Source of the DNA: a virus
Reading direction: 5' to 3' (one strand)
DNA: 39,669 nucleotides
IMG/VR virus record: IMGVR_UViG_3300046504_000062
Coordinates: 1 to 39,669 of that record
Shown in pieces: positions 12,903 to 37,125 of this stretch. Each line of letters starts with the position of its first letter. The first letter of the stretch is position 1. The notes under the pieces are model-generated. The model was not told the origin of the DNA. It searched no databases and saw only the letters and a list, made by a program, of their open reading frames with translations. The position numbers and the translations under genes are program-made.

Positions 12903-12970
12903 CTCTCGAAGCGGTGCTCGCTTTAGAAAGCTATTATTTTTATGTAAACACACTATCCTGGTTCTGTCAA
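12869..12970 (-). promoter_or_regulatory. late leader copy 6 (lysis module)
   Basis: TTGACA (12970-12965), nine bases, TAGTGTG, -10 TTACAT (12947-12942), then TAATAG. Next is a small hairpin AAGCG-AGCAC-CGCTT (12923-12909) and the terminator 12902-12869. Gene start 12849. Confidence 0.7.
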
Positions 12971-12971
12971 A

Positions 12972-13508
12972 CTATTTGGCAGGTAAAAATGCTTTAACTG
13001 CTGCTTCCATGTTTGGCAACCAATGTGGGTTATTGTCCCCTACGGGGGCATATCCAGAGGCCTGGAGTGTTTGTGGAGAAGGGTTCTTTCTAAATTGCTC
13101 GTAGGCTGGATTTGTGCTCAATCTATAAGCAACGCGAGACGTAATATATTGAGGGCTATAATCCTGCAAAGGGTAAGGCTGGACACGAGTTCCCCAGTTA
13201 AAATAGTTTCCTGGATGAGTCACATTTTTACCCAATGATGTCTCTGCATAAGGAATAGCAGGGTAAACTGGATATAAAGAAGGATTTTGTTCAATTTGTT
13301 TAGCCATGACTGGAATTTGAGCCATAAGATCAGGAGTAGCTCCTCCCAACTTTTGATAGGCATCGGTAATAAGAGCTGCATAATTAGGTTTTGTAGTAGG
13401 TTGAAACCCATCTGGAAGAGGAGAAACCACTTTAGGGCTACCCCCTCCAAGGAGCTGTAATAATCCTACAATGCGAGATTTAGCTTCTTCTAATGCACTT
13501 GGTTTCAT
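12972..13508 (-). CDS. lysozyme/glucosaminidase-like virion protein
   Basis: A 178-residue protein. Its middle reads PVYPAIPYAETSLGKNVTHPGNYFNWGTR. A glutamate followed by S-x-G-K and then N-Y-F-N-W-G is the active-site layout of lysozyme-like glycan hydrolases and lytic transglycosylases. Its start overlaps the end of the giant gene as ATGA, so it is translated with it and is more likely a virion-associated wall-opening enzyme for DNA entry than the lysis enzyme. The call rests on this one motif region. Confidence 0.6.
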   Translation of the reverse strand: MKPSALEEAKSRIVGLLQLLGGGSPKVVSPLPDGFQPTTKPNYAALITDAYQKLGGATPDLMAQIPVMAKQIEQNPSLYPVYPAIPYAETSLGKNVTHPGNYFNWGTRVQPYPLQDYSPQYITSRVAYRLSTNPAYEQFRKNPSPQTLQASGYAPVGDNNPHWLPNMEAAVKAFLPAK

Positions 13509-16500
13509 GGTCTCCCCAATCCTGATAAAGCTTTAATTGATGTTCTGAGTTTTGGGGTAGTGATACCTGATTTAGGCATAGAAAGCATTGATGGTGCAGT
13601 TGGTCTTTTAGTTCTAATACTACTTGCCGCTGTACGACGTGCTGGAAGTAATTTAGATCCAAGACCAAAGTTGGTACCTAATTTTCGACTAGCAACCTTA
13701 TATGATGGTGATTTTGCAGATGTATAATCAAATTGTGCTTTAGAAGCAGCGCCAGCTGGAAGCATTTTGTATCCTCCAGTCTTAGAATCCCATCCTACGC
13801 GCTTCAAATAAGCTCCCTGATCTTTGCTCAAGTATTGTTCATCGACCAATTTACCGATCAAAGTGTCAGTAAGTAATGGCTTTCTGGTTCCCTCTGAAAC
13901 ACGTCTCATTGAGACAAGTGAAGCAAGTAAATCTTCTCCTTTTAACCCGTTAATCTCTGTTTGAATTTCAGATAGCTGTACATCATCTGGAAGGCTAGTT
14001 TTATCATCGTAGAGTAGAGCTTCTTCTGTAATAGAATGTTTATCCATCGCAGTCTGAAGAGCATCTCCTCCTAGTCCTGTACCATCAAATTTATTGCGTA
14101 GCGCGCGAACATAAGTGAATTCTTTTGATCGAGCAAGCATCCCCTGAGCATCAGCTGAAAGACCTTTTTGTGGAATAGCCATGTCTTTAGTCAAGAAATT
14201 CTCATAGGCACTATCAAAGTTAATACCGTATTTTTCAATAGCTCCTTGGATTTTATCTCTAGTTTCCTGTGTGGTAGCCGTATCATAGGCGGTGAGCAAG
14301 GTGTCAACTTGTTTCTTCTGCACATCAAGGGCTGCGTTCATTTGAGTTTTAGTGCTTCCTGTCGCGACTTTTGCTCCACCCATAATTGCATCCAACTCTT
14401 TCTGAGCTGCATTTTTAAAGTAATTAGCCTGAGATGTAAGTTGATTTTCCTGCAAAACGTCTTTGTATGGTTGTTCCATTGCTGGATTAGCCTGACCAAG
14501 TGACCATGGGAAAATATAATCAGTGATATTTCGTTTTGCTTCCTGTCCATAACTATCTGTGATAGCTGGGAGATTCTTACTTGCCCATGGAATATTTTTA
14601 GTTAATCCAGCGATGAATCCACTGGCTTTTCTAAATGTAGGATCAACAACGTGGGTAATATCCCCCATCAAGCTATTAAGTGGCATTAATTGTCCAGCGG
14701 TGAATGCTAGGTTGCTTGCGGTGCTATAATCAACGTTTCCTTCAAATGTTTGCACAAATCCACCAAGTCCAGACAATGGAGTTGATTGTGACCACTGATT
14801 AAGTGAGGACATCATAAGTGAGAATACTTTTTGTCCAACTGAATCGGTTAATGCGGTTTTACTATCAGCAAAATAATGTTTGTAAGCAGCGGCCATACCA
14901 AATGGAAGAGCCCATGGACCTAGATAAGCAAAAGGTACCCATTGCTGTCCAAAAGGAGTATCTATTTGGAATGAGAATGGTTTTCTACCTGTATCATAGA
15001 ATTTAGTTTTCTCTTCTGGGTCAGTTGGGGCGGCCCAAGTGGTGTGTCCTGCAAGAGCCATCATGGCTCCAAATCCAACGACAGCGGCTCCAACACGAGC
15101 CTTTGAATATTGTTCCCCAGGGTCAGCTGCGCCAATGGCGGTGAAAGGTCCAACAATTGGGTTATATTCCATGCCCATTTTTGCGACAGCCATAGGAACA
15201 CGAACGAACATAGCGAACCATCCAATTGGTGGAAATGCCGTTCTTCCTTTTAATACCCACTCAGTAAGACGATCCATCGTTTGTAATAACTTGCCTTGTC
15301 CACTTTTTCCCGTAGTATCTGTTGGAGATTTATATAATAGATCAGATGCTAGAATTTTAGCTTTAGCTAGGGCTTGAGCTTCTGGCATACCAAGAGATTG
15401 AAGTCTTGCGTATTCCGCATTTCTAATTAAGGTGACAAAGAATTGATCAGCGCCTTCAAGTGCGCGACCAGCAACAGTCAAATATCCAGGGACTCTTTCT
15501 GCCATACCCTGATTAAAGGTAGCAAAGTCTCCAGAGACATCAGATTTGCCCATCGCTGCATTTGGATTTGATACTGTCTTTAAGAAGGCTTGTGTGCCCT
15601 CCTGCATAGAACCAAAGAGTGAGCGATAATAGATAGGAACTTCTTTGAAGAAACGTGTTTTCTCTTTGCCCGTCAAACCGCTTTTTACTGCATCCCATGT
15701 GGCCATATCAAGCACCTGAAGTGGTTTAACTATTGTGGCGTTGAATGCGTTATTTGTGATGTTTCTTAAATGGGTTCGAATACCTGAAAGGGCATTCTGG
15801 TAACGATATGCATCGATAATGGTTCTGGCTGGAGTTGGAATTGGTTTGAGAATTTCCTGCATCAAGTCATGTGTCTCTTTTGCTCTAAGATTCTCATCTG
15901 GAATAAGAGAAATATCTCCCATGCGCTGTTTAATTCTAGCGACCATATCCTCTGACAATGAAAGTTTCCAATTCTTATTACCAGTTAATCTCTGTGCTGC
16001 TCGTCCAATGCTGAGATTTTGCATCTCATTTGCTTGGTCATAAATATCACGAGCCCATCCTACCAATGAATCTGGTGTTGAGTAAGACCATAGATGATAA
16101 AACTGAAGGGCCTGAGCTGCTGGTGTAGCTTTTCGAGCCATTGCGTTTCCAACCTCGATGGCCTGATTTTTGATAGACTCATAGTCAGCAAGTCTTCCTG
16201 CTGCTTTTGCTTCTGCGGCTCTACGTTGTAAATCTTGGAATAATTCCAAACCAATACCTTGAATTTCATTTGAAAGGGGAACTTCGTCAGAGAGCACCTG
16301 TTGCATAGAACCTGCATAATCTTTTTTAACTGCTTCTTTTCCATATTCAATACGACCCGCATCTGAGGTCATGTCATACACTCCAGAAACTCCAGCGCGA
16401 ACATCTGGATTAATTTCTGGGTTAGATCTGATAGAAGTGACTAAACCACGCTCAGCTTGCCCTGCCACTGGCTTTTCCATTGGTGGAGGCTGAGTGGGAG

Positions 16501-19936: not shown

Positions 19937-19958
19937 ATGTCATATGTTCAGAGTTAGA

Positions 19959-21059
19959 TTAGCTCACAAGATTTCCGAACTCATCATAAGTACCAGGTTT
20001 CTTGACTGCTGCACCTTGTGCGGTTGTCTGAGAAGCTCCGATGGTCGTTGGACCTGCATTTTGCTGGAACCCTGTGACAAATGCATTAATATATGCAGCC
20101 CATTCCTGTGGACTAAACTGTCTACCAGAAACCTCTTGAAGCTTAGAAGTAGCTGCTAAAGCGATGTTATTTCTAAATTCTCGGTCAGACTGTGCAATTT
20201 GACGAGCCTGATCAACTGTTGATTGGAGAGCTGCAAGACGATCTTTGGTCTTATTGGCCTCAACGTCTGCTTTTCTCATATTAATTTCCTGTAATTTGTC
20301 TGAGAGATTAGATCTAAGTTGCTGTAGTGCCTCATTTTTAAACTGTTCAAGATCATCTTTCTTTTGCTGAACGTATTGATTTATTCTCGTATACTCTTTT
20401 CCAAAGTCAAGTGCACCCTGAGTCTGATTCTGTTGGACATTACCTTGCTGTTTGAAATATTCTTGCTGTGCAAGTTCTCCAACGGCCTGTCCAGCTGAGC
20501 TAGAACCACCGAAGCGAGCTTGTCCTTGTTGACGAAGTGCATTATATGCACGAACTGCGTCTGAAAGAGCTGATTGAATTGTCTGATTAAATTTAGATTC
20601 CTGACCTTGAGTATCTTGTGTAAGGTTCTGACCCTGAGTGTCAAATTGTCCAGACTGATTTTTAATAGAATTTTGAAGATTGGTTTCATCAATATTCTCG
20701 TTGGCCTGTGTGGCATTGTACATGTTATTCAATTCATCTTTGTAGGGCTGATAAGCATCACTAATTTGAGATCCTTCGTTACTATTCTGACCTGCCATTT
20801 GTGCAGCATAATAATTATCATCCCATGCGCCAGTTGCAGGATTAATATGTGGATTTGAATTGGTTGGAGCTGGAGCTGGTCCGCTACCAGAACCACCAGA
20901 AGGAGCAGCTGTTGGGTGAGGAGTCGTTGCCTGTGGGACATATACGTCGGCAGCTCCGCCATATCCGTAACCTGGACCCTGAAGTAGTCCACTATTAGGT
21001 GCGGCAGAAACTAACGTTAATCCGCCTGTTCCAAACCAATCTTGTAATGTATTTGCCAT
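19959..21059 (-). CDS. coiled-coil late structural protein
   Basis: About 366 residues. The first 100 are Gly/Pro/Ala-rich and disordered. The rest is strongly helical, Gln/Asn-rich, with long coiled-coil character (QNQTQGALDFGKEYTRINQY and following). No family recognised. It directly precedes the giant polyvalent protein and probably is another internal or tail-associated virion protein. ATG 21059 is preferred over GTG 21071, which lies directly after the U-tract of the leader terminator. Confidence 0.7.
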   Translation of the reverse strand: MANTLQDWFGTGGLTLVSAAPNSGLLQGPGYGYGGAADVYVPQATTPHPTAAPSGGSGSGPAPAPTNSNPHINPATGAWDDNYYAAQMAGQNSNEGSQISDAYQPYKDELNNMYNATQANENIDETNLQNSIKNQSGQFDTQGQNLTQDTQGQESKFNQTIQSALSDAVRAYNALRQQGQARFGGSSSAGQAVGELAQQEYFKQQGNVQQNQTQGALDFGKEYTRINQYVQQKKDDLEQFKNEALQQLRSNLSDKLQEINMRKADVEANKTKDRLAALQSTVDQARQIAQSDREFRNNIALAATSKLQEVSGRQFSPQEWAAYINAFVTGFQQNAGPTTIGASQTTAQGAAVKKPGTYDEFGNLVS

Positions 21060-21071
21060 GTTATTGAGCAC

Positions 21072-21104
21072 AAAAAAACCACCAAATTGTAAGTATTTTG
21101 GTGG
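21072..21104 (-). terminator. leader terminator before coiled-coil gene
   Basis: CCACCAAA pairs with TTTGGTGG, ten-base loop, seven T (21078-21072) on the minus strand. A GTG follows directly and the likely ATG 12 nt later. Confidence 0.78.
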
Positions 21105-21173
21105 CTCAATGCGTGTGCTACGCTTTTGAACTATATTTATTCGATCCTAACTAACTAGAAACTTAAATGTCAA
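21072..21173 (-). promoter_or_regulatory. late leader copy 5 (ejection module)
   Basis: TTGACA (21173-21168) two bases after the upstream stop, an 18-bp spacer with TAGTTAGT in place of TAGTGTGA, TAGGAT (21149-21144), TATAGTTCAAAA, hairpin GCGT-AGCAC-ACGC (21123-21111), then terminator. Confidence 0.7.
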
Positions 21174-21174
21174 G

Positions 21175-21660
21175 TTATTGCTGGGCTGCTGGTGGCAATT
21201 TACTTGCCATGTTTAATTGATCTCTTTGAATCAATTGTCCAAGCAATGCAACAACACTTCTAGCTGTTTCAATTTCATCTCTGTCAGTTGACTGAGCAAT
21301 ATACTGTTGTAATGCAGAGATAGCCATTGTTAATGGTTTTGATTTATCTGGGTTCTGTCCTGGTTGAAGTTGATCTGGCTGTGGTTTGCCATCTGGCCCA
21401 AGAGCTGGTTGAGGAGGAGCTGTTGGTGGTTGTGCTGGACCTGCGCCTGCACTCATCATTCCCGCCATTGCATCCATTGGAGATCCACCTGCTGAAGGAC
21501 CGCCCTGTTGAACGAATTTCATAAATGGATTACCACCTGAAGAAGGACCCCCTTGTGGAGGTTTTTGTGGACCTTGAACTGGTCCTTGTGGTGCCCCTTG
21601 AGGAGCTCCCTGGCCTTGTGCCATTCTTGCCTTTAATGCTGCGATAACTTTTGGATCCAT
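21175..21660 (-). CDS. Pro/Gly/Gln-rich late protein
   Basis: 161 residues. Residues about 13-100 are low-complexity, with repeated QGAPQGP, GGPSxGG and PPQP units; the last 60 residues are helical (ALQQYIAQSTDRDEIETARSVVALLGQLI). It has its own late leader. Possible roles are a scaffold, tail linker or phase-separating virion component; no homology is recognised. The single-gene module suggests that its amount is controlled separately. Confidence 0.65.
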   Translation of the reverse strand: MDPKVIAALKARMAQGQGAPQGAPQGPVQGPQKPPQGGPSSGGNPFMKFVQQGGPSAGGSPMDAMAGMMSAGAGPAQPPTAPPQPALGPDGKPQPDQLQPGQNPDKSKPLTMAISALQQYIAQSTDRDEIETARSVVALLGQLIQRDQLNMASKLPPAAQQ

Positions 21661-21666
21661 ATAAAC

Positions 21667-21699
21667 AAAAAAAGGTCACCGATAAATAGATTGGTGACC
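21667..21699 (-). terminator. leader terminator before Pro/Gly-rich gene
   Basis: GGTCACC pairs perfectly with GGTGACC around a 12-base loop, followed by seven T (21673-21667) on the minus strand. The ATG follows six bases later. Confidence 0.8.
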
Positions 21700-21761
21700 A
21701 AATGCCCTTGCTGGGCTGTTTGAACTATAGTCACTAAATCACACTATTAAATACTTGTCAA
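21667..21761 (-). promoter_or_regulatory. late leader copy 4
   Basis: TTGACA (21761-21756) one base after the upstream stop, nine bases, TAGTGTGA, TTTAGT (21738-21733), TATAGTTCAAA, hairpin GCCC-AGCAA-GGGC (21716-21704), then terminator. Confidence 0.75.
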
Positions 21762-21762
21762 G

Positions 21763-22929
21763 TTACATAAAAAAACTATAACCCGATTCTCTTGGAGGAT
21801 CATTATAGATGTCACTTTGCGTACTGTCTAAAGATGGACTGGTTGTTCCTGAGACAGATTGAGAATAATCAACATGGATAGCCCCAGCACCACCAGCTGA
21901 ACCAGTTCTATAACCATAATTTTCATCTACTCTCGCTGCCCCAATGGCCGTACAAATAGATGACCCTAATGATAGAACTTGTCCTTTAAGTAAAATTGCA
22001 CCAGCTCCACCTGATCCACCAGAACCTCCTTGGGCTTCTCCATTTCTCGTTCCCATATATCCGTCAGCAACAATAGATCCAGTAACTGTAATACTTTTTG
22101 CAATAATAATAATGCCTCCAGCTCCATTTCCTCCATCTCCAGCGACTCCTCCATCTGCTCCTCCACCTCCACCCGCTCCCCCCAAAGTAAATGAAGTGAG
22201 GCTTCCTGTTCCAAATTTTGCTCCCCCAGTGCCCCATTGTCCTGTGTTTGCTCCACCAGACCAATATCCTGTTTCACCAGCTACCAAAATACCGCCTCCA
22301 CCGCCGCCAGAGGCTCCAGCGTGCCATACTCCATTGGTTGGATCTCGAGATCCTCCTCCACCACCGTTTCCGTTAGCACTACGAGAATTTGAAGCTGCTC
22401 CAGAATATCCTTCTCCTTGATAGCTTTCGTTATTATTTCCTCTAAAACCTAATCCTGAAGCATTAATAATACCAGCATTAGAAACTAATCCTGTGCAGAA
22501 AAATCCCATTAATCCACCAATATTGCCATTCCAGGCAGGAGCGGAATAAATGATTCCAGAGTTAATAGTGGCAGTAAGGTATTGTTTTAATTGTAAAATT
22601 TGAGCTTGAGATGCTCCAGAATCTGTATAAGTATTAATGAGGTTATACGCCATTGTTAAGGAAGTTGATCCTCCCCCTGAGGCAATTTTGTTTAATTCCC
22701 ACCCACCAACTCCTGTTCCAGCAGTTTGATGAATTAAAACTAATTGGCCATTAGCAAAGCTAGATGCTCCATCTATGGTTAATGAGGTAGATCCACCATT
22801 ACCAGAGCATCCCGCATTAGCAGCAGCAAAAGTGGTATGTGAGGAAACAACTAGGTCTCCATCAGAACCATTACCGAATTTTTCGATCCATAAATCTGTA
22901 TCATCTGATCTAAATTGACGTTGTGCCAT
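21763..22929 (-). CDS. glycine-rich tail/fibre protein, paralogue B
   Basis: 388 residues. The N-terminus MAQRQFRSDDTDLWIEKFGNG and the C-terminus ending SGYSFFM match the gene just upstream. The centre has long Gly/Ala-rich runs, which may form a polyglycine-type or beta-helical bundle. It starts through a TAATATG junction with its paralogue. Exposed fibre tips and adhesins in phages are often glycine-rich, so a receptor-binding or decoration role is plausible; it is not proven. Confidence 0.7.
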   Translation of the reverse strand: MAQRQFRSDDTDLWIEKFGNGSDGDLVVSSHTTFAAANAGCSGNGGSTSLTIDGASSFANGQLVLIHQTAGTGVGGWELNKIASGGGSTSLTMAYNLINTYTDSGASQAQILQLKQYLTATINSGIIYSAPAWNGNIGGLMGFFCTGLVSNAGIINASGLGFRGNNNESYQGEGYSGAASNSRSANGNGGGGGSRDPTNGVWHAGASGGGGGGILVAGETGYWSGGANTGQWGTGGAKFGTGSLTSFTLGGAGGGGGADGGVAGDGGNGAGGIIIIAKSITVTGSIVADGYMGTRNGEAQGGSGGSGGAGAILLKGQVLSLGSSICTAIGAARVDENYGYRTGSAGGAGAIHVDYSQSVSGTTSPSLDSTQSDIYNDPPRESGYSFFM

Positions 22930-22930
22930 A

Positions 22931-24106: not shown

Positions 24107-24107
24107 T

Positions 24108-24887
24108 TTATAAAGCTCTGCCTAAGACTGTGAGGTCTGAAGCAGTGCCTCCCCCATTGTCTATGTCGAAGGTAAGGATATCTCCTGGATTCAAGGTTCT
24201 GAGACCAATAGAAGCAGTTGAGACAAAAGTGCCTCCAGCAGGAAATACTAAACGAGTGTTTTGATCAGTGAAAATACTTACCCCATTTTTATTAATATCA
24301 AGAAGTAATGATCCTCCAGAGACTGGTGTTCTCGTAACAGCACAGAAAAATTGAAGAAGACCTGCTTGTGGGATTGGAAGTGGTTTTCCGACAGCTGTAG
24401 TAGCAAGAGAAACTAAACCTCCAACTGACCAACCTGGATTAATAGGGAAATTACCTGTTATAGAAGCTCCTGATGCGTTTATATGAGTATATACGCGCGC
24501 GACTGACATCGTGGCAGTTGAGCTGATAACCACATTTCCATTAACATCATGAGACACTGAAAGCCAATCAAGTAAATCACCCCAGTGAGTGATAGACATT
24601 GCTTCTTCAATAATGGCACCTGAGTTATGGGCTTGATTTGTAGATCCAGCTAGACCACGAGAACAACCCGTAAGTTGACTACCTGAAATACCTGTATAAG
24701 AGATGTATTCGCGGACTGTTGGAGTGTTATTTCCATTACCATCAGTTCTGTCGATAACAAGCACACCAGGAAACTGTAAACCAGTTACAGTTGTAAGAGT
24801 GATAGTACCATCTGAACCAGTGATACTACCATTTAGAGTGGTAGAGAAGGCGTTAACTGTCGCCGCTTTCCAGAGTTTTGCTGCCAT
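24108..24887 (-). CDS. tail protein, beta-rich
   Basis: 259 residues. The segment REYISYTGISGSQLTGCSRGLAGS is typical of phage tail and baseplate-periphery proteins that list surface properties of fibres. The C-terminal half (PGDILTFDIDNGGG) looks like a jelly-roll or similar beta sandwich. First structural gene behind late leader copy 3. Probably an adhesion-device component upstream of the glycine-rich paralogues; the exact role is unknown. Confidence 0.68.
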   Translation of the reverse strand: MAAKLWKAATVNAFSTTLNGSITGSDGTITLTTVTGLQFPGVLVIDRTDGNGNNTPTVREYISYTGISGSQLTGCSRGLAGSTNQAHNSGAIIEEAMSITHWGDLLDWLSVSHDVNGNVVISSTATMSVARVYTHINASGASITGNFPINPGWSVGGLVSLATTAVGKPLPIPQAGLLQFFCAVTRTPVSGGSLLLDINKNGVSIFTDQNTRLVFPAGGTFVSTASIGLRTLNPGDILTFDIDNGGGTASDLTVLGRAL

Positions 24888-24897
24888 ATATTTTTAT

Positions 24898-24936
24898 TTA
24901 CTTCTTTTTCTTTTTGTTTTTTCCCTTGCAAGCCAT
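24898..24936 (-). CDS. possible 12-aa lysine-rich leader peptide
   Basis: ATG 24936 to TAA 24898-24900 encodes MACKGKNKKKKK. It lies between the leader terminator and the tail gene start (24887). A run of lysine codons could slow ribosomes, or the run may simply be A-rich leader sequence. There is no Shine-Dalgarno. Weak candidate. Confidence 0.25.
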   Translation of the reverse strand: MACKGKNKKKKK

Positions 24937-24946
24937 AAGAATGCAC

Positions 24947-24979
24947 AAAAAAAGCGGCCCATATAAAATTATGAGTCGC
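24947..24979 (-). terminator. leader terminator before tail gene
   Basis: A nine-position stem (24971-24979 with 24954-24962, one mismatch) followed by seven T (24953-24947) on the minus strand. Confidence 0.7.
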
Positions 24980-25046
24980 CCAATGCCTGTGCTAGGCTTT
25001 TGAACTATATTACTTCAACCAAATCACACTACGAAAGTAATGTCAA
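24947..25046 (-). promoter_or_regulatory. late leader copy 3 (tail module)
   Basis: TTGACA (25046-25041), nine bases, TAGTGTGA, TTTGGT (25023-25018), TATAGTTCAAAA, hairpin GCCT-AGCAC-AGGC (24997-24985), then terminator. Confidence 0.75.
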
Positions 25047-25048
25047 GA

Positions 25049-26998
25049 TTACACGTTCCAGGCTGAAGGAGAATTTCCTCTAGCTTGTGGAATAGCGATG
25101 GTTTTGACACCCAAAAGTTCATAGTTATCTGTCTTTCCAGTAGTACGGACTTCGAGCTGGAAAATACGTGATGATTTGTAAATGAATGCCTTACGTGGAA
25201 GTTCAAGAGATGAGAATTGAGCGATATTATTCGTTAATCCAAATTTAGTCGTACCAAACATATCCGTACCAAATCCTGAGGTTCCTGATGATCCAGTAGC
25301 TGTGATGGTAAAGGATTTAGCGATGACCGTATTGCCACTACGCTCTTCAAGATAAATGTTGATATCAATAGAACCACGGATAGATCTGAAGTTCATATAA
25401 ACCTCGTTGACTGTTTTGAATAATGTCCAGTCACCAAAGTCTTCCTTTTTAGATTTAAACACGGTTCTAATAGCCGTTCCTTTATCATCTGGGAATGTAT
25501 CTGCAAACTCAGTAATATAAGCATCATTGTAATCAGCGGCAATCCATCGTTCTGTACCGTTTGAATCAACATATTTAGCCCATTGATAAATACCAAATGG
25601 AGTATCCCATGGGCCTATGAAAGAAAGACGTTCTCGATCAAAAGCAATCGTTTGTTTTGCATTAGGGAATGAAAGGAGATATTTCTTGTCAATATAGGCA
25701 GCGGCTGTAGATGTGTGGTCGGATTCAGTCATACCTTCAAAGAAAGGACGAATCTTGGCTGAAATTTCATTAGCGTTCAAAATGGTAAGAAGCTGAGGTT
25801 CGTAACGCAAAATATAGATACCTTTACGATTTGCAAACATCAAGTCATTTTCAACAGGACAGATAGAACGGTGAGATGAACATCCCTGTGAAGCTGTTAA
25901 TAATTTATATTGAGGATCAAGAACCAAGTACTGACCAAATTGAATTTGAGGCAATAGAACTTGCCATACTGAATTTTCTTTGAACACAACAAGTTTCTCT
26001 TGGTGAATTCCAAGTCCTGTAATATTTTGTCCTGAGTCTGGTTCGATATAGATATAACCACCACCAGCATACCAATCAAATCGCTCTTGGAATGGGTAAC
26101 GTCCAGAGATCATAACTTTAGTTGGTTGTCCTGGAATACCCGCAATAATAAGACGATCTTGATATCGAATGATATATTTAGCTTTTGGACCACCTGAAGT
26201 GTCAGCGACTGGAACAACACGGAAAGGGTCTGGAACAGCAAGACCCACATCATCAAATTTTAATGTTGTGTCATCTACACCACCAACCCATCTTTCATCT
26301 CCTGGAGACCCACGATAAACATTATATCCAATCAAGTCGCCTGAAGCGGCAGAAACCGCATTCCAACTGACTCTCATAACTGTTTTAGTCAAATCTTGAG
26401 GTAAAGTAGCTGAGGAGAATGGTTGAGAGGCAATTGTTTCTCCACCTGATTTACCAATAGCACTAACTCTCCAGCTCCATTGAGAAGAACCAGTTGCTGA
26501 GGACATATTGGTTGCGGTTGTACCAGTTGGAATTCCAATAGTAGCAAAGGCAGTGAGGGTAGAAAAGTCATAACGAACGAATTCACGAAGAGGGCTAACC
26601 ATATAAACGTTTCCACCCAACTGAGTAGCTTCTACAAGAGAGCCTGATGGCCAGGATGCACCAGCAATTGGAGCATACGTTGCTCCAGATTTTTTGGTCA
26701 TAATGCCCCAGTCTGTGAGAGCAAGAACTTGCTGATTGTCATTGGCATCTTTAATAGGCATGACAAAACGAGTTGCTATCGTAGTGGTTGGACCTGCTTG
26801 GTAGTAATTTTGAGATCCCCAACGCTTAGTGGGAACACCAGATCCTACAAGAAGAAGATTTGTAGAAGCAGCCATTTCAGAGCCATTAAGCTCGTTTTCG
26901 CGCAGCAAAAGATTGAGACCTTTTCTCCAAGTGTCCCAAGAAATTACCACATCTTTTGGTGGTGTGAATTTTGGTTCCTTTAATCCTGTTAATGGCAT
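25049..26998 (-). CDS. tail nozzle-like protein (beta-propeller)
   Basis: 649 residues of repeating beta segments (LALTDWGIM, LGGNVYMVSP, YQDRLIIAG, HQEKLVVFKENSVWQV, ANRKGIYIL), as expected for the propeller of podovirus nozzle proteins such as T7 gp12. An Fn3-like insert lies at about 185-260 (WSWRVSAIGKSGGETI ... GYNVYRGSPGDERW). It follows the adaptor-like gene through a one-base TAACATG junction, the same order as gp11-gp12. It would form the distal tube that channels DNA and anchors fibres. Strong by layout, moderate by homology. Confidence 0.72.
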   Translation of the reverse strand: MPLTGLKEPKFTPPKDVVISWDTWRKGLNLLLRENELNGSEMAASTNLLLVGSGVPTKRWGSQNYYQAGPTTTIATRFVMPIKDANDNQQVLALTDWGIMTKKSGATYAPIAGASWPSGSLVEATQLGGNVYMVSPLREFVRYDFSTLTAFATIGIPTGTTATNMSSATGSSQWSWRVSAIGKSGGETIASQPFSSATLPQDLTKTVMRVSWNAVSAASGDLIGYNVYRGSPGDERWVGGVDDTTLKFDDVGLAVPDPFRVVPVADTSGGPKAKYIIRYQDRLIIAGIPGQPTKVMISGRYPFQERFDWYAGGGYIYIEPDSGQNITGLGIHQEKLVVFKENSVWQVLLPQIQFGQYLVLDPQYKLLTASQGCSSHRSICPVENDLMFANRKGIYILRYEPQLLTILNANEISAKIRPFFEGMTESDHTSTAAAYIDKKYLLSFPNAKQTIAFDRERLSFIGPWDTPFGIYQWAKYVDSNGTERWIAADYNDAYITEFADTFPDDKGTAIRTVFKSKKEDFGDWTLFKTVNEVYMNFRSIRGSIDINIYLEERSGNTVIAKSFTITATGSSGTSGFGTDMFGTTKFGLTNNIAQFSSLELPRKAFIYKSSRIFQLEVRTTGKTDNYELLGVKTIAIPQARGNSPSAWNV

Positions 26999-26999
26999 G

Positions 27000-27686
27000 T
27001 TAGTCTCTACCGATACGGAAGCCCTGTTTGCGTTCAGGAGTTATGACGGTATTTGGACTAGCGTAAGAGTTGTATTTGGCCAAGTCCGCATTTTCGATCA
27101 TGGTCAATAAACGCTCACGAGCCTTCGTCTCTTCCTGTTGGAAACGAGGATCTGATCGGGCCTCGAAAATATAAGCGATAGCTCTGTCTACTAAAAATTG
27201 TGAGTCTGGGATAAGAGGAACTTCAGAGCCAGATGCTAATGAGGTTGGAGTTGAAAAATATTGAACTGCAAGAGAGGCACCAGAAGCTAATGTTCCAGGG
27301 TTAATTAAAATATTATATCCATTACTTGGATCACCCATGACTTTAACATATTTATCTGTAGAAACGTATAAACCTTCTTGTTCTGGCAAGGCTTCTCCAT
27401 AATGAGCTCCATTACTTTGCTCTCCGTTATATAAAACAACATCAGCGGCCAATTTCTTGAAATCCGCTGGAAGAGGAACTGTAGCGGCAGAGACAGTAGT
27501 GATAGATGGAAACCATACTTTACGAGAAACTTCCCAGTCGTGAGCATCAACCCATTCAAAGTAGGATCGATTGATGTATTGGAGCCATAGACCCCATTCT
27601 GCATTTCCCGCGTCTGGAGCAGCTGATTCTTGGTTAACAGTAGATGCAATCTGCTGCATGATTTGAGTGACAGTTAATCTAGCCAT
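27000..27686 (-). CDS. head-tail adaptor-like protein
   Basis: 228 residues. It opens with a helix (LTVTQIMQQIASTVN), then WLQYINRSYFEWVDAHDWEV, matching the helical start of podovirus adaptor/tail-tubular A-type proteins, followed by a beta core (INPGTLASGASLAVQYFS) and a C-terminal helix (LIPDSQFLVDRAIAYIFEARSD). It would link portal and nozzle. Its ATG directly follows the seven-U tract of the leader terminator, so no normal Shine-Dalgarno exists except G-rich bases in the hairpin. Confidence 0.7.
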   Translation of the reverse strand: MARLTVTQIMQQIASTVNQESAAPDAGNAEWGLWLQYINRSYFEWVDAHDWEVSRKVWFPSITTVSAATVPLPADFKKLAADVVLYNGEQSNGAHYGEALPEQEGLYVSTDKYVKVMGDPSNGYNILINPGTLASGASLAVQYFSTPTSLASGSEVPLIPDSQFLVDRAIAYIFEARSDPRFQQEETKARERLLTMIENADLAKYNSYASPNTVITPERKQGFRIGRD

Positions 27687-27723
27687 AAAAAAAGACCCCC
27701 TGCTAAACGTTTGCTGGAGGTCT
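27687..27723 (-). terminator. leader terminator abutting ATG 27686
   Basis: AGACCTCC pairs with GGGGGTCT (one G-U) around a 15-base loop containing AAACGTTT; seven T (27693-27687) lead straight into the start codon. Confidence 0.75.
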
Positions 27724-27790
27724 ACCGCGCTGTTTGCGCTAATAAACTATATGTGCCCTAATCCAATCACACTACTTATTACTTTGTCAA
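27687..27790 (-). promoter_or_regulatory. late leader copy 2 (adaptor/nozzle module)
   Basis: TTGACA (27790-27785, inside the end of the upstream gene), ten bases, TAGTGTGA, TTGGAT (27766-27761), TATAGTTTATTA, hairpin GCGC-AAACA-GCGC (27739-27727), then terminator. Confidence 0.72.
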
Positions 27791-28861
27791 TTCCTCGCAT
27801 CTTTCTTCAACGAGTGGAATATAATTATAGTGATTTGGTTGATGTGAAAGACGATCAGGCGCCATGGCCCAGGGAAGATCTCTTATGGGTAAATCAAGTC
27901 TCTTTTGAGGGTAATTTAGAGAAGTCATAATGCGTTCAGTTTCTCGCTTATAAAGGAAATCCTCTCCATATTTTGCTCGATATTTGTCTAAAACTTTAAT
28001 ACATGACTTAGGGAAAAATGATCCCCACCCTAATAAGGCAATCTTTTTGTCTTTATACGCTTGGATATGTCCAGGTTTCATGGCACATGTGATTCCATCT
28101 CCCGCTTCTACATACAAAGCTTCAATTGGAGCAATACAATCATCATCCTGATAATAAATCCAGTCAAACTTAGCCTTCTGAAATAACTCTTGCTTTCGAT
28201 GTGGGCTATCGCAGTGGGTCATAACTAGAATTTCTCCAAATGGCCGCATAGATACTTCATGTAAAATTTCCTGTGGATAGATTGCGTCCCTTGTGATAAG
28301 ACAAGCGGAAACATTAGATATGACAAAGGATGGCTTTTTAAAAAGATAAAAATAGAGCTGTCCATCCTCTTCGATGACCTGACGAATAATTGGCGTACCG
28401 AATATTGATGGATCAAACTTTCGAATCTTTACGTGGGTATCAATTGGATCATCATATTCATAAGCTGTGATTGCTAAATACTTGGTCCATTTGGACTGTA
28501 ATTGGTCTAATAATTGGTCTAAATCATGGTCATCGAGAACATGAAATAGCACGTCAACACACAGTAGAAGGTCGGCGCAAGGAACTGCATTTATATCAGT
28601 GGTAAAGGTCGCGCGTGGGTATAATTCATTATTTCTTTTAATGATTACATCTGAAATATCCTGCCCGACATATGATGCATTTGGATATAGTCGTAGAAGA
28701 TTTAATCCAAAATTAAAGTCGCCACATCCTACCTCAGAAATAGACTGAATATCTAGCCCTTCTAACCATTGTAGTTTCTGGGTCAGTTGATTATCATAGG
28801 AACCATATCCACTATTCCATCCTTTAGAATAGCGCATGTTCCAATAGTCTTTAGCTATCAT
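27779..28861 (-). CDS. fused methyltransferase-glycosyltransferase
   Basis: About 360 residues in two parts. Residues 1-180 are a class I methyltransferase (SEVGCGDFNFG at 42-52, YVGQDIS, CVDVLFHVLDD). From about 200 a GT-A type glycosyltransferase follows, with WIYYQDDDC near 236 as the metal/sugar-nucleotide motif and the LLGWGSFFPKSCIKVLDKY block. The second half matches the partial protein at the right window edge. ATG 28861 overlaps the previous stop as ATGA. It probably both adds and methylates a sugar of a surface glycan, or modifies two sites of one product; the target is unknown. Confidence 0.8.
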   Translation of the reverse strand: MIAKDYWNMRYSKGWNSGYGSYDNQLTQKLQWLEGLDIQSISEVGCGDFNFGLNLLRLYPNASYVGQDISDVIIKRNNELYPRATFTTDINAVPCADLLLCVDVLFHVLDDHDLDQLLDQLQSKWTKYLAITAYEYDDPIDTHVKIRKFDPSIFGTPIIRQVIEEDGQLYFYLFKKPSFVISNVSACLITRDAIYPQEILHEVSMRPFGEILVMTHCDSPHRKQELFQKAKFDWIYYQDDDCIAPIEALYVEAGDGITCAMKPGHIQAYKDKKIALLGWGSFFPKSCIKVLDKYRAKYGEDFLYKRETERIMTSLNYPQKRLDLPIRDLPWAMAPDRLSHQPNHYNYIPLVEERCEELTK

Positions 28862-29925
28862 AATATTGCAAAATCTGGGATAGAGGTGATCCACTTCCCT
28901 TTGAATTCTATTTCTCTTTTTTTGAAATAGTCTACAAAACCATAAGGAAATACCCAGAGATAATCACATTCTGGAACCTTATCTATAATAGGTACTCCAG
29001 TTGCTATGGTAAATTTACCAAATTTATCCTTATTAACGTCTACAACTCCAGGCAATGAAACGCCATAATACTGGAGAATGGTATTCATTTTGGTGGAAGC
29101 GCCATACCCATAAACGTCATGGTCCTTTAAAAATTCAACCATTTTTTGTTTATTGGTTTCCATGCGTGAGAAGAATGCTTTAAGCTCTTCGACTGTGTAT
29201 CTTTTCTCCTCAAATGGAATAGAACCAAACTTTAAGTGTCGCGCGTATACTCGGTATGATCCTCCATTAATATCATTCTTTTTGACATCAAATATCTCCA
29301 GCCCATTCTGCTCAAATAAAGTGACTAGGGATTTATATGAATAGAATTCAATATGCTCGTGACAGATATTTCCCACGTCATTATTTTCGATCATAGGATG
29401 AAGCGTCATGAGTTGAGCGATAAAAACTCCATCTGGATTCAAATGGTTCTTTATATTGATAATAAACTTATTTGGATCTGGAAGATCATAAAGCATGGCA
29501 ATTGCAGTAATAGTATCAGCCATCAGTGACCCATCATAGTCTTCCCAATAGGCATGAATCCAATTGAATTTTCCAGGTTGAATATCTGATGGATCAACAC
29601 ACCACTTATTAGGAGCCGTTGAGTGAGTAAGTAAAGTACCATCGTTTCCACCAATATCAATATGAGTAGACCCTTTAACTTCAGCGGCGATTTCCTTGAG
29701 ATTCTCTACAATGACAGGATTAAGAGCTGAACGATACCAATAGTGCTTATATAATTTCTCTCGAGGAGCTAAGTGACCCAACTGCAATAAAGTACATTTT
29801 TGACAGTATACAAGGTCCAATTCATATTTATCTCCTGGTTCAGGTTGTTCAGTGAAATCGCTAATAGCAATCTGACCAAGCGTTCCAATTTCTACTACTG
29901 GTTCTTTACATATTCTACAGTTCAT
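28858..29925 (-). CDS. sugar C-methyltransferase (NovU/TylCIII type)
   Basis: 355 residues with the three-part layout of sugar C-methyltransferases. An N-terminal zinc-binding region is seen (CRICKEP ... YCQKCTLLQL). A Rossmann methyltransferase core follows (THIDIGGNDGTLL, then CHEHIEFYS with the catalytic His/Glu/Tyr set). A C-terminal domain starts at about DVYGYGASTKMN. Family members methylate a carbon of NDP-sugars, such as 3-C-methyl deoxyhexoses. ATG 29925 overlaps the preceding stop as ATGA. It is part of the coupled glycan cassette. Confidence 0.88.
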   Translation of the reverse strand: MNCRICKEPVVEIGTLGQIAISDFTEQPEPGDKYELDLVYCQKCTLLQLGHLAPREKLYKHYWYRSALNPVIVENLKEIAAEVKGSTHIDIGGNDGTLLTHSTAPNKWCVDPSDIQPGKFNWIHAYWEDYDGSLMADTITAIAMLYDLPDPNKFIINIKNHLNPDGVFIAQLMTLHPMIENNDVGNICHEHIEFYSYKSLVTLFEQNGLEIFDVKKNDINGGSYRVYARHLKFGSIPFEEKRYTVEELKAFFSRMETNKQKMVEFLKDHDVYGYGASTKMNTILQYYGVSLPGVVDVNKDKFGKFTIATGVPIIDKVPECDYLWVFPYGFVDYFKKREIEFKGKWITSIPDFAIL

Positions 29926-30743
29926 AGCGGCCACTCCTTTGTTTGTGAGAAATGAAAATAAGCGATTTGATTCCCAAAGAATTTGTGCGCATTCTTCCAA
30001 TCTGGATGTGCCACATCTTCAATAAGTTGCCAAAGACTTCCATCGTCTTCAATTCTCAATTTTGGTACTGGACGATGTATTTCTAATCTGTCATGACCAT
30101 GAATATCAAAATATTTAGGATATCCATATCTGACAACCCCTTCTTTTTCTATATCTAACATTAAATCGCTAAACCAATGCTCGTCGGTAGCATAGAGAAA
30201 ATGATCAGCGCCAATGCCCATGCAGCCTGGACAGGGAGTTTGCACAAGCATAGTCTCCCATTGTGGTAATCTTTTAAATAAGTCAGTAATTTCTTTCTTA
30301 TTTCTCCAAAGACAAAAATTACCGTTTATCGCATGTAAATCATCTGACCAAACATCAAACTGATCCAGTTTAGAATCTGGAAGAAAGTGATCTAATCTTC
30401 CAACGACACAATCAAGACCAATAACTCCCCAAAAATCAAACTCTTTTAAATAATCTTCAAACACGGCGCCGAGAGTAATAAGAAAATCAGTCACATGATA
30501 ACTTGGGACATCAAGTGGTGTAATGAAAAGCTTGGGATTGACTCCAAGTTTTTCCTCTACTGTTTTATTGAATCCATTAATATCCATTTTTACTATCTCA
30601 ACATTCCCTTTGGACTGGAAATCATTAGGGGTAAATATTTTCCAATACCAACCATACTTTTCCAAATGCTGCACGTGATCTATATATTGCTGTGTCCATT
30701 TATGTGGACTACCAAACTGGAGAATTATAAAACATTTTTTCAT
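29922..30743 (-). CDS. glycosyltransferase, DUF6625-like GT-A
   Basis: 273 residues. FWGVIGLDCVVGRLDHFLPD, then a GNFCLWRN segment, resemble the G-x-D-x-D-x-x-x-G-D-[IVL] and G-H/N-F-x-L-x-R-N blocks of DUF6625-type glycosyltransferases; here the D-x-D is D-C-V. The C-terminal part is aromatic-rich and might bind an acceptor sugar. It shares ATGA overlaps with both neighbours. Donor and acceptor are unknown. Confidence 0.68.
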   Translation of the reverse strand: MKKCFIILQFGSPHKWTQQYIDHVQHLEKYGWYWKIFTPNDFQSKGNVEIVKMDINGFNKTVEEKLGVNPKLFITPLDVPSYHVTDFLITLGAVFEDYLKEFDFWGVIGLDCVVGRLDHFLPDSKLDQFDVWSDDLHAINGNFCLWRNKKEITDLFKRLPQWETMLVQTPCPGCMGIGADHFLYATDEHWFSDLMLDIEKEGVVRYGYPKYFDIHGHDRLEIHRPVPKLRIEDDGSLWQLIEDVAHPDWKNAHKFFGNQIAYFHFSQTKEWPL

Positions 30744-31216
30744 TTGACCGCCTTATAAATTACATGAATCGATTGAGGAATTTTAACACCATATTCTTCC
30801 TGCCAATTTACTTCTTCAGCTAATACTTTCTTGAACTGTCCAACAAACCCCTCATAGACATGATCTAGTTTATATCTATAACTATCTATATCAAAGTGTT
30901 CAAACTGTTGTAAATTCCAATGGCTTAGGTGACTAGGAGAACCAAAGTCATTACGACTCCCCGCATTAGGAATGTAGTGTTCCATAGTGCCACCATCCTT
31001 AAGCATACGCCAAATTTCATTAATAACTGTAACCTTTGCTTCTGGAACAATGTGTTCCATAAAATCTTGCGTATATATCTCATCCACGCTACTAGTTTCT
31101 ATTGTAGGTAATCCTTTGGTAACGTCCGCGACGATATCAATTCCATCAAAAGGATACATATCTACGTGTAAAAATCCTGCTTTTCTATCACTGCCAGCTC
31201 CTAAATATATTTTCAT
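30740..31216 (-). CDS. SAM-dependent methyltransferase
   Basis: 158 residues: MKIYLGAGSDRKAGFLHVDM (SAM loop and acidic residue), SSVDEIYTQDFMEHI and EIWRMLKDGGTMEHYIPN, a Methyltransf_11-like core. Such proteins in glycan cassettes often O-methylate sugars. It is ATGA-coupled on both sides. Confidence 0.85.
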   Translation of the reverse strand: MKIYLGAGSDRKAGFLHVDMYPFDGIDIVADVTKGLPTIETSSVDEIYTQDFMEHIVPEAKVTVINEIWRMLKDGGTMEHYIPNAGSRNDFGSPSHLSHWNLQQFEHFDIDSYRYKLDHVYEGFVGQFKKVLAEEVNWQEEYGVKIPQSIHVIYKAVK

Positions 31217-31854
31217 AGATCAACTCCTAATAGTTTGGCGTTTGGAACCACACAATGACCTCCAATTGGTCCCTCTTTATGGGTGAGCCAAGGACGAACC
31301 ACGTCTGGTCTGCCTAATTTAACGTATCCATCGTTATAATCCTGATTTGCTTGTTTATAAACATCCTCATAATCAACGTTATGCTTTACGCACCACTCAT
31401 AAATCTCTTTTTCCAACATAATCAAGCGGCCATATTGGGTTGTATCCCATAGTTTAAGTGCTTCAGTGGCCTTCGCTTCTTTAAAAACCTTGGTTTTGAG
31501 CCCTAAATCCGCAAATATTTGGGCAGCTTTGTCTGCATCTTTGCCCCCGAAGTATTTAACAAAGGTTCTAATACCTTTTTCTAGATGTGGATGCACGCCA
31601 CGAATAGGACTATGAACCACTTCTAGGTCATCACAGGTCCCGAACGGGGTAGTTGAATGAACAATAACTAAATCTGCTTCCTCTTTCCATTTTTCTACGG
31701 TAGTTTTAAAGCTATCTGAGTATGGAATACAAATATGAGCCACATCTACGTGTTTCTGATCCCAATTTGACTCATGACGACTATAAAATTGACCACCAAC
31801 GATTGCGTTAATAGCAATTCCTACTTCACCAAGACCGACAGTTAAATGATCCAT
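31213..31854 (-). CDS. short nucleotide-sugar dehydrogenase-like protein
   Basis: 213 residues with VGLGEVG (Rossmann loop), VHSTTPFGT, and a C-terminal PIGGHCVVPN that matches the GGHC cysteine block of UDP-glucose/UDP-ManNAc dehydrogenases. Full enzymes are about 420 residues; the third domain is absent and the second is short. It may be a reduced enzyme, an NAD-binding pseudoenzyme, or work with a partner. It overlaps the deacetylase gene by 13 nt. Confidence 0.6.
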   Translation of the reverse strand: MDHLTVGLGEVGIAINAIVGGQFYSRHESNWDQKHVDVAHICIPYSDSFKTTVEKWKEEADLVIVHSTTPFGTCDDLEVVHSPIRGVHPHLEKGIRTFVKYFGGKDADKAAQIFADLGLKTKVFKEAKATEALKLWDTTQYGRLIMLEKEIYEWCVKHNVDYEDVYKQANQDYNDGYVKLGRPDVVRPWLTHKEGPIGGHCVVPNAKLLGVDL

Positions 31855-32369
31855 TCTGATTTTCCCTTCACCGCATCAAAATGCGCGGCATTAATGCCTA
31901 ACTGAGATTTATAACAAGCCAACACCTTATCTTTTAACTCAATTTCTTCTGGAGTTGGTTTCATTTCATATGTTCCCTTGGTCCAAAGCTCTTCATGGGT
32001 ATAAGTGGTATATTGTTTAACGTAAAAGAACACTTGTTGAGCTAATTTCCCTATTAAATCGTGTTGTACGTGGCCTCCTTGAATCGCTGGAGCGTAAACT
32101 GTATCAAATCCTGAGAATTTCTTGAGTTTATCTGTAATTTCCCACTCACTAACCACATCATCTCTTAATCCTAAACGAATTACGGGGCAATTTAAGATTT
32201 TCATCGCCTCTTTTGTCTCTTCCCAGCGCTGATCTGCGGTAATATTGTCACCTCTATTAAACTGTATCCAACTGTCTGTTACTATAACAACCAAAGGATG
32301 CTCTCTCATAAGGGTATAGGCCCCAAAGAGGGCTTCATCGTCGTTATGTGGTGAGAGAAAAAGCTTCAT
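31842..32369 (-). CDS. PIG-L/LmbE family deacetylase
   Basis: 175 residues with the zinc motif SPHNDDE (H8, D11), QRWEE and GGHVQHD (H100, H103, D104). These enzymes remove acetyl groups from N-acetylglucosamine-type sugars. Here it would deacetylate a cassette sugar. ATG 32369 overlaps the HNH stop as ATGA. Confidence 0.9.
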   Translation of the reverse strand: MKLFLSPHNDDEALFGAYTLMREHPLVVIVTDSWIQFNRGDNITADQRWEETKEAMKILNCPVIRLGLRDDVVSEWEITDKLKKFSGFDTVYAPAIQGGHVQHDLIGKLAQQVFFYVKQYTTYTHEELWTKGTYEMKPTPEEIELKDKVLACYKSQLGINAAHFDAVKGKSEWII

Positions 32370-32713
32370 ATATTATTTATTTTATGTGGACATATCCCAT
32401 AATATGATTTTGTACAATTACAGTTATAACAAAGAATCTGATATCCTTGTGGATAATTATTTTTTCTAATCCATGTATAAAAAGTCTGAGATGAACATTT
32501 CGGATGTATAGCCATTCTTTCTTTTCTACCGCCGCCGTTAATATGATCTAAACATAAGAATTGAAATTCTTTTTCACCACAACAAGCACATTGATTTCCA
32601 TAGTGAGTAATGACATCTATTCTGAGCTTGTTTCTTGTTTTGATTCTGTTTGCTTTTACTTTATCTGGATTTTTATGTCTCCATTTCTTCATTGTTTCTG
32701 TGTATTTATTCAT
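32366..32713 (-). CDS. HNH endonuclease inserted in the glycan cassette
   Basis: 115 residues. CACCGEKEFQFLCLDHINGGG gives the zinc pair and DH-x-N core, and ILCYNCNCTK the second zinc pair; CPH follows. The basic N-terminus could bind DNA. This is the free-standing phage HNH type that acts as a homing or maturation nuclease. It is joined to both neighbours by ATGA, so it sits in the operon without breaking coupling. Confidence 0.88.
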   Translation of the reverse strand: MNKYTETMKKWRHKNPDKVKANRIKTRNKLRIDVITHYGNQCACCGEKEFQFLCLDHINGGGRKERMAIHPKCSSQTFYTWIRKNNYPQGYQILCYNCNCTKSYYGICPHKINNI

Positions 32714-33609
32714 GTTTTTCGTATAAACAAAACGTCACTATTATCAGCTGTCATAGCCATGCGTTTCCATTGATCTGCGTTTTTTTGCCATCTTTCATTC
32801 CCAGCTCCATCACCAGCTAGACGAGCCATAAACAAAATAGCTTCCTTAAAATTAGCGTTTATTATAAGAGCCTGTACACACGCGTCGCGCGCGTCATTAG
32901 GCATCTTCATATTCCAATAGGCTTGAGACATTACAAGAAACGCATCTGCTTTTTCTGCGAGAAAGTTAGAGACTTGGACGTACTTCCCTAAAGTGACAAC
33001 ACAATTTTCATATTCATTACGATAGCTATATTCACGACCTAAATAATAGAGGATACGAGGAGTTGGTCTGGCGGCTGCTTCTTTTTTGAGGATTCGGAAG
33101 GCTCGGTCTGGATCATTTTTATGGGCAGGGCTGAATCCAACCGTAATAGTAACATTACCAATAGAAGATCCGACGATGGAGAGAGTATTGTGGACAGCCC
33201 CCTCCCACCACACCTGTTCACAATTTTTAAATAAACGGGGGAAAAGGAACCATTGATCTTGATTTTCGGCAATGAGTTTAACGTCTACCGCAAGATCTTT
33301 GCGTGATTCTGCAATTGCCACAGCTTCTTTAACAGCGCCGACATCATGAAGAATTTCGTCAGCATCCACAGAGAGGATCCAATCAGATTTACATTTGCTC
33401 TTTGCATGATTTCTCGCTGCCGCGAAGTTATCACACCAAGTAAAATCAGTATAGACCTGATCGGTATATTGTTTAGCGATTTCAATTGTCTTGTCAGTGC
33501 TACCTGTATCTACGATTACTATCGAATCTAGTCCTTTGAGGGATTCTAGACATCGAGGAAGAAGAGCTTCTTCGTTTTTAACGATAAGCACAGCTGATAT
33601 TGTTGCCAT
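32710..33609 (-). CDS. family 2 glycosyltransferase with TPR-like tail
   Basis: 299 residues. Residues 1-100 are the GT2 start (AVLIVKNEEALLPRCLESL, VDTGSTDKT, WILSVDADE with the DxD motif), and the rest resembles WaaE/SunS-type enzymes. From about 190 TPR-like helices follow (YYLGREYSYRNEYENCVVTLGKY). It should transfer a sugar from an NDP donor. It is the first gene of the glycan cassette, behind a leaderless-type promoter. Confidence 0.85.
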   Translation of the reverse strand: MATISAVLIVKNEEALLPRCLESLKGLDSIVIVDTGSTDKTIEIAKQYTDQVYTDFTWCDNFAAARNHAKSKCKSDWILSVDADEILHDVGAVKEAVAIAESRKDLAVDVKLIAENQDQWFLFPRLFKNCEQVWWEGAVHNTLSIVGSSIGNVTITVGFSPAHKNDPDRAFRILKKEAAARPTPRILYYLGREYSYRNEYENCVVTLGKYVQVSNFLAEKADAFLVMSQAYWNMKMPNDARDACVQALIINANFKEAILFMARLAGDGAGNERWQKNADQWKRMAMTADNSDVLFIRKT

Positions 33610-33615
33610 ATATTC

Positions 33616-33644
33616 TTTACATCACACTATCGGAACATTGTCAA
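33616..33644 (-). promoter_or_regulatory. leaderless-type late promoter before glycan cassette
   Basis: TTGACA (33644-33639), nine bases, TAGTGTGA, TGTAAA (33621-33616), then six bases and ATG 33609. It shares the late promoter motif but has no TATAGT box, boxB-like hairpin or terminator. Confidence 0.65.

Positions 33645-34305: not shown

Positions 34306-37125
<2,820 letters not shown>

Follow-up and report, generated by a model that had tools for sequence, protein, structure and literature searches.

A late promoter class linked to a putative leader RNA switch in a clade of uncultured phages

The locus and its relatives

The window considered here is the whole of a 39,669-base IMG/VR virus record (IMGVR_UViG_3300046504_000062) from an uncultured phage, and all results were derived from sequence. 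Read from the right end, its minus strand carries virion and lysis genes interspersed with morons (e.g., a glycosyltransferase and a methyltransferase); genes for replication and recombination, for a resolvase, a Cas4-like nuclease, ThiF and transfer RNAs (tRNAs) lie on the plus strand. Two linked elements, a late promoter class marked by TAGT in the spacer and a leader RNA in which a hairpin overlaps an intrinsic terminator, probably control the late genes of this phage clade (rough probability 0.6). The corresponding sites of the window, all on the minus strand, are listed below.

27761-27790, minus: late promoter, TTGACA-N10-TAGT-GTGA-TTGGAT
27720-27748, minus: extended leader hairpin, outer GUUUAUU/GGUAGAC, inner GCGC, loop AAACA
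27687-27724, minus: intrinsic terminator overlapping the 3′ strand of the hairpin; T-run 27687-27693 adjoins ATG 27686
25018-25046, minus: late promoter, TTGACA-N9-TAGT-GTGA-TTTGGT
24978-25006, minus: extended leader hairpin, outer GUUCAA/UUGGGC, inner GCCU/AGGC, loop AGCAC
24947-24982, minus: intrinsic terminator upstream of gene 24108-24887
21733-21761, minus: late promoter, TTGACA-N9-TAGT-GTGA-TTTAGT
21696-21725, minus: extended leader hairpin, inner GCCC/GGGC, loop AGCAA
21667-21700, minus: intrinsic terminator upstream of gene 21175-21660
21144-21173, minus: late promoter, TTGACA-N10-TAGT-TAGT-TAGGAT, with TAGT but no TAGTGTG
21104-21132, minus: extended leader hairpin, outer GUUCAA/UUGAGC, inner GCGU/ACGC, loop AGCAC
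21072-21108, minus: intrinsic terminator upstream of gene 19959-21071
12942-12970, minus: late promoter, TTGACA-N9-TAGT-GTGT-TTACAT
12902-12931, minus: extended leader hairpin, outer CUUUC/GAGAG, inner AAGCG/CGCUU, loop AGCAC
12869-12906, minus: intrinsic terminator upstream of the lysis genes

The lysis genes behind the 12970 module are 12622-12849 (a weak match to a family annotated as hemolysin) and an endolysin gene at 11311-12174. A preliminary description of the window had reported five minus-strand copies of TTGACA followed after 9 or 10 nucleotides (nt) by TAGTGTG, which were confirmed at 12970, 21761, 25046, 27790 and 33644; it had missed the module at 21173 and a weaker one at 37967 (minus strand). 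TAGT promoters are found on the plus strand as well (6069 and the weaker 3957).

Megablast of positions 20000-33700 against cultured phages gave 0 matches, and none of these phages is considered close, because the 649-amino-acid protein encoded at 25049-26998 shows only 25-31% resemblance to phage stabilisation proteins. An IMG/VR scan with this protein as the query yielded 17 and then 74 loci, and the contigs of eleven nearer relatives were retrieved whole or nearly whole as overlapping pieces. The near group comprises nine contigs (the window, L006, L007, L008, L009, L023, L024, L025 and L027), and the far group comprises L010, L028, L029, L031, L032 and L048. The leader is common to contigs with marker protein identity down to about 45%, and distant homologues of the 649-amino-acid protein (L053-L080, about 22-39% identity) gave 0 leader matches.

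The TAGT promoter class

The combination TTGACA-N5-14-TAGTGT occurs 5 times in the window versus 0.10 expected from dinucleotide shuffles, the 7-mer TAGTGTG on its own being mildly enriched (8 vs 4.2). Across the nine near contigs, TAGT stands at offset 9 or 10 after TTGACA at 41 of 247 sites, as against 0 to 5 sites (about 1.4 on average) at any other offset (Poisson P about 1e-32). The enrichment upholds the earlier claim of a conserved element between -35 and -10, but not its full extent: only TAGT is invariant among near relatives, the GTGA portion varies, and the four bases 3′ of TAGT are variable except for the A adjoining the -10. The -10 of this class is poor, mostly with 3 or 4 of 6 matches to TATAAT, whereas the comparison promoters without TAGT, which were selected for a good -10, are mostly TGnTATAAT. 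A TG at -15/-14 is found in the TAGTGTGA copies but is not conserved among the 41 TAGT promoters. The consensus reads TTGACA-N9/10-TAGT-N4-TANNNT, with TAGT at -20 to -17, 4 nt 5′ of the -10.

The register of the -10 is fixed by two promoters that lack a leader:

33616-33644, minus: TAGT promoter without leader; ATG 33609 (glycosyltransferase) 6 nt past the -10
6069-6097, plus (early strand): TAGT promoter without leader; ATG 6104 (PDDEXK endonuclease) 6 nt past the -10

At both, the ATG stands six nt 3′ of the rule-placed -10, which is the spacing of leaderless genes, and the -10 therefore lies four nt after TAGT; on this register, the alternative of the downstream TATAGT as the real -10 fails. 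In the 33644 copy, the TAG of TAGT is the stop codon of the upstream open reading frame (ORF).

The products encoded 3′ of TAGT promoters, named partly by reading of the sequences, are either structural proteins (portal-like, scaffold-like and tail) or late cargo encoded by stand-alone genes, including PDDEXK and HNH endonucleases, a glycosyltransferase, a methyltransferase and ribbon-helix-helix proteins, and this gene content points to TAGT as the mark of a late promoter class. A terminator follows 19 of the 41 TAGT promoters compared with 8 of 206 other TTGACA sites (Fisher P 2e-11). The other 22 of the 41 have none within 170 nt, their genes being leaderless or preceded by a Shine-Dalgarno sequence. 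Because about half of these promoters thus lack a terminator, TAGT is not tied to antitermination and is best read as a promoter-class element and not, in itself, as a loading site for an antiterminator. The far group shows no TAGT enrichment and has TRTGnTTTAAT promoters, with the leaders retained.

Two observations touch on this class. The far-group leader at L108 6690 (G013, L029 contig) has a promoter with the full TTGACA-N9-TAGTGTG followed by TTTTAAT, bridging both promoter styles. Leaderless-type TAGT promoters also precede genes for ribbon-helix-helix proteins of 52-55 amino acids in G001 (L006, 43876, minus) and G011 (L027, 34683, minus), which are possible regulators of the same class.

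Three further sites of the window are weaker:

37866-37967, minus: weaker module with a TTGACT promoter, hairpin ACGA-AACAA-UCGU and terminator
11146-11173, minus: TTTACA-N10-TAGTGT-TATACA, a weak member with TAGT off register
3957-3985, plus: weaker promoter-like site, TTGCAT-N9-TAGTGTGA-TAGCGT, upstream of gene 3996-4259

The site at 11173 had been described as a holin promoter with TAGTGT; the TAGTGT is present, but its TAGT stands 2 nt rather than 4 nt before the -10, and the -35 is TTTACA.

The leader RNA

Most structural late units open with a leader of about 62 nt between promoter and gene, in the order imperfect 5′ hairpin, intrinsic terminator, gene. The hairpin has an inner stem of 4 bp, a single 5-nt loop of about ARNAM (AGCAC, AGCAA, AACAC, AATAA and similar), one asymmetric internal loop and an outer stem of 5-7 bp. 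An alignment of 14 leaders over the inner hairpin and terminator revealed double changes in all 11 pairs, with 98.1% of cells paired and 41 double-change cells versus 10.6 in shuffles (0 of 500 shuffles).

As a scan for a degenerate -35 plus terminator was too noisy with a relaxed -35, a covariance model (R1) was chosen instead, built on the RNA part alone with the promoter excluded and the outer stem left out; its E-values are rough. R1 recovered leaders outside its training set at window position 27689 (E 1e-5) and at L082:19424, the portal leader of L006 (E 3e-12), as well as at L081:3746 and L087:3448 and, in the far group, at L107:15019 (E 1e-5), L107:16172, L108:17242 and L106:17974. Upstream of nearly all matches below E 1e-3 lies a TTGAC, mostly at a distance of 33-40 nt; L084:4784 is the exception, and L091:11134 and L088:18218 have a -35 at another distance. 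This spacing places the predicted 5′ end of the RNA at model position 1, the (T)ATARG motif. The weaker module at 37866-37967 gave no match to R1 at E<=1. A search of Rfam (gathering score and E<=1) returned no match over the leaders, and no description of such phage leaders was found in literature searches.

The (T)ATARG motif lies at a variable distance from the promoter, is typical of leader promoters and is mostly missing at leaderless ones. Its form TATAGT occurs in four window leaders; relaxed forms often lack T6 (TATAAG, TATAGG), and the counterparts in relatives are TATAAG, TATAGG, CATAAG and ACAGTT. The preliminary description gave a spacing of 3-9 bp from the -10 to TATAGT for most copies, which holds for three of its five (3 at 21761, 8 at 25046 and 9 at 27790), with AATAGC at 12970 and nothing comparable at 33644. 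Its comparison with the -10-like pause element of lambda is less clear: the distance varies, the motif is replaced in relatives, and the bases 3′ of it form one strand of a covarying RNA stem, so that TATAGT appears to be the start region and may be a poor fit to a fixed pause element.

This stem is the outer stem, in which the bases 3′ of the start motif pair with those directly 3′ of the small hairpin. Three distinct pairings occur inside the window (GUUCAA/UUGAGC, GUUUAUU/GGUAGAC and CUUUC/GAGAG). Over 35 leaders, the cognate duplex has a mean of -4.02 kcal/mol versus -2.03 (standard deviation 0.25) with the 3′ segments swapped, and within-contig swaps, which control for relatedness, gave -3.94 vs -2.82 (standard deviation 0.23), with 0 of 20,000 swaps as low. 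The leader sets had been picked partly by eye before these tests, the outer stem playing no part in the picking. L007 yields no swap signal, because its leaders are near-identical in the paired segments. Inner hairpin, terminator and outer stem all covary, the outer stem even inside single genomes. In 36 of 36 folded leaders the outer strand reaches into the 5′ arm of the terminator, by 1 to 20 nt and mostly 3 to 10, and in most minimum-energy folds of the full leader the outer stem is displaced by the terminator. The boxB-like hairpin of the preliminary description survives as a small hairpin between promoter and terminator, but it is part of a longer structure overlapping the terminator, and its loops are not of the boxB type.

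Two local features lie beside these leaders. The AGCAC loop is complementary to GUGC just 3′ of the terminator T-run in three window leaders (21072-21174, 24940-25010 and 12860-12935, minus strand), a candidate loop-to-downstream pseudoknot that may be due to chance. Between the 25046 leader and gene 24108-24887, positions 24888-24940 (minus) hold a lysine-rich mini-ORF of 12 codons (MACKGKNKKKKK).

Candidate factors, host and other features

Profile searches of 12 contigs, several of them incomplete, gave no match above cut-off for NusG (PF02357), CAT_RBD (PF03123) or sigma-70 region 4 models, and none for the phage antiterminator Q family PF06530, the lambda-Q and AlpA families not being searched; all these searches did produce matches in control genomes. 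As several contigs are incomplete, a missing factor gene is not proof.

MerR-type proteins bind promoter spacers, which makes a 108-amino-acid winged helix-turn-helix protein (2971-3297, plus) a lead for a TAGT factor: it bears a weak resemblance to the DNA-binding domains of MerR-type proteins (RacA, CarA; best E 0.23), lies in a ThiF/SSB-like neighbourhood and has relatives in L007, L008, L028, L031 and L010. A basic protein of 112 amino acids (4897-5235, plus) has by eye a C-terminal sigma-4-like helix-turn-helix and a distant homologue in L027 (54640, plus); a search gave no further relatives, and its AlphaFold model is poor (predicted local distance difference test, pLDDT, 55). Neither protein shows a link to TAGT. 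In the sole genome-contig relative, a Neomarinimicrobiota metagenome-assembled genome examined as a route to the host, the TAGT spacing shows no enrichment, the count being 6 against 23 with the pattern reversed.

Elsewhere in the window, a collagen-like ORF of 939 amino acids (34306-37125, minus) with many GPTG-type repeats (DNA repeat families D1-D6) lies amid the late genes and has homologues in L008, L010 and L024. The early strand bears a cluster of seven tRNA genes (Ser, Pro, Gly, Ser, Cys, Ile, Ile; 5391-7119, plus), interleaved with small ORFs and the PDDEXK endonuclease gene under its own TAGT promoter. The adjacent genes 21763-22929 and 22931-24106 (minus) have 75-nt starts that are 77% identical (repeat D9), which suggests tandem duplication of a tail or fibre gene.

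Proposed mechanism and alternatives

The proposal builds on what is seen directly, namely the promoter class, the architecture of the modules, and the covariation and mutual overlap of hairpin, terminator and outer stem. A terminator/antiterminator switch at each structural late operon, superimposed on the late promoter class, is the simplest reading, and termination, antitermination, their timing and a trans-acting factor would be arranged as follows. TAGT at -20 to -17 would compensate for the poor -10, probably with the help of an early-made phage factor that binds the spacer or associates with RNA polymerase, and such promoters would drive the structural genes and also late cargo and homing genes that stand alone. 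In front of structural operons, the RNA would start at or near (T)ATARG, fold at about +4 to +33 into the imperfect hairpin with the conserved loop, and then reach the terminator (about +31 to +62), the 5′ arm of which has bases in common with the outer strand of the hairpin. By default, the more stable terminator would open the outer stem and leave a short RNA of about 62 nt; if either a putative phage protein or RNA polymerase itself held the hairpin, full closure of the terminator would be prevented and the gene would be read.

Several points weigh against this switch. The factor searches gave no match above cut-off in the 12 contigs, several of them fragments, a few leaders have weak outer stems (in G002, cognate equals non-cognate), the terminator loops are long, and the overlap of outer stem and terminator, which goes down to 1-3 nt, was obtained with generous pairing and without a shuffled control. 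TAGT, moreover, could reflect a host sigma preference.

The preliminary description had favoured a Q-type layout, and a spacer element with an intrinsic terminator just downstream is indeed present, and four window leaders have TATAGT as an A/T-rich element near the predicted start. A small phage protein of the Q or AlpA type might then bind TAGT, engage polymerase paused at the -10-like start-region element and render it terminator-resistant, the hairpin being incidental. The association of TAGT with terminators would fit, but 22 of 41 TAGT promoters lack one, far relatives have leaders without TAGT, the start motif varies in distance and often lacks T6, the contigs searched hold no match to Q family PF06530, and the hairpin and its outer stem covary, which makes this explanation unlikely. 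We consider processive antitermination of the N/boxB, put or LoaP kind similarly improbable. Here the 5′ hairpin would recruit a factor or bind polymerase, and the modified complex would pass this and later terminators, in keeping with a conserved loop on a sequence-variable stem right at the 5′ end and with the repetition of the hairpin along the late genes. A processive factor, however, has no need for each terminator to have its own abutting and overlapping hairpin; the ARNAM loop is neither GNRA-like nor UNCG, a single hairpin before the terminator is unlike put, and a NusG paralogue was not found in the contigs searched.

Less probable still is that these are ordinary extended -10 sigma-A promoters lying by chance between an upstream gene and its terminator, with hairpins that stabilise 3′ ends or 5′ untranslated regions and expression through leaky termination. 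The genomes are compact, the window copies have TGTGA adjoining the -10, the far relatives have TRTGnTTTAAT, and the U-rich tract right before the ATG could help translation. Yet the TAGT class as a whole does not conserve TG at -15/-14, the conserved RNA starts where the promoter would start it, and the covarying outer stem overlaps the terminator in all 36 leaders.

Beyond the terminator/antiterminator switch itself, the odds seem about even that the leaders form an undescribed phage RNA family constituting a genome-wide regulon, in which each structural late operon would have its own promoter but stay blocked at its own terminator for as long as no phage factor stabilises the hairpin, and which together with the TAGT class would amount to a late switch with two locks, distinct from Q, N and put. 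Few phages have had their late gene control worked out in detail, and antitermination in it has so far meant Q, N, put or similar systems. In uncultured phages, a strongly covarying leader RNA in front of most late structural operons would offer a late switch open to direct testing, and perhaps a compact RNA switch together with its protein. The covariance model can be used to find more such leaders.

Comparison with known systems

Q and AlpA promoters combine a spacer element, a downstream intrinsic terminator and a -10-like A/T-rich element in the initially transcribed region (PMC6606751, PMC9371919). Lambdoid Q (pR′/tR′) and AlpA/PalpB thus share with the present modules an element between -35 and -10 and an intrinsic terminator shortly downstream. 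Unlike in those systems, there are many copies here, the 4-bp element is also found at terminator-less promoters, and a conserved RNA structure overlaps the terminator, which the Q mechanism does not need.

In the ribonucleic antiterminators (RAT) of bacterial sugar operons, recognised by BglG, LicT and SacY, hairpin and terminator share bases, one excluding the other. The present leaders resemble these in form, in that a short imperfect hairpin directly upstream of the terminator overlaps it (PMC7430163), and folding placed an imperfect leader hairpin over the terminator 5′ arm in 36 of 36 leaders. They differ in serving phage late genes, in many copies per genome and behind a special late promoter class, in their single 5-nt loop with one asymmetric internal loop, and in that no CAT_RBD protein was found in the contigs searched.

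In lambda N/boxB and LoaP/dfn, too, a small hairpin that combines a variable stem with a conserved loop precedes a terminator, LoaP requiring a NusG paralogue and a UNCG hairpin (PMC12691694). In contrast, the loop here is ARNAM and the outer stem overlaps the terminator; no GNRA-like boxB pentaloop occurs among the leader loops, boxA not having been searched systematically, and the contigs searched revealed no NusG paralogue. Finally, in HK022 a phage transcript likewise begins with a structured RNA, put, upstream of terminators, but put is about 70 nt long, comprises two long stem-loops separate from the terminators and acts at a distance (PMC9378689), whereas the present leaders carry one 30-nt hairpin that overlaps its own terminator and is repeated at each operon.

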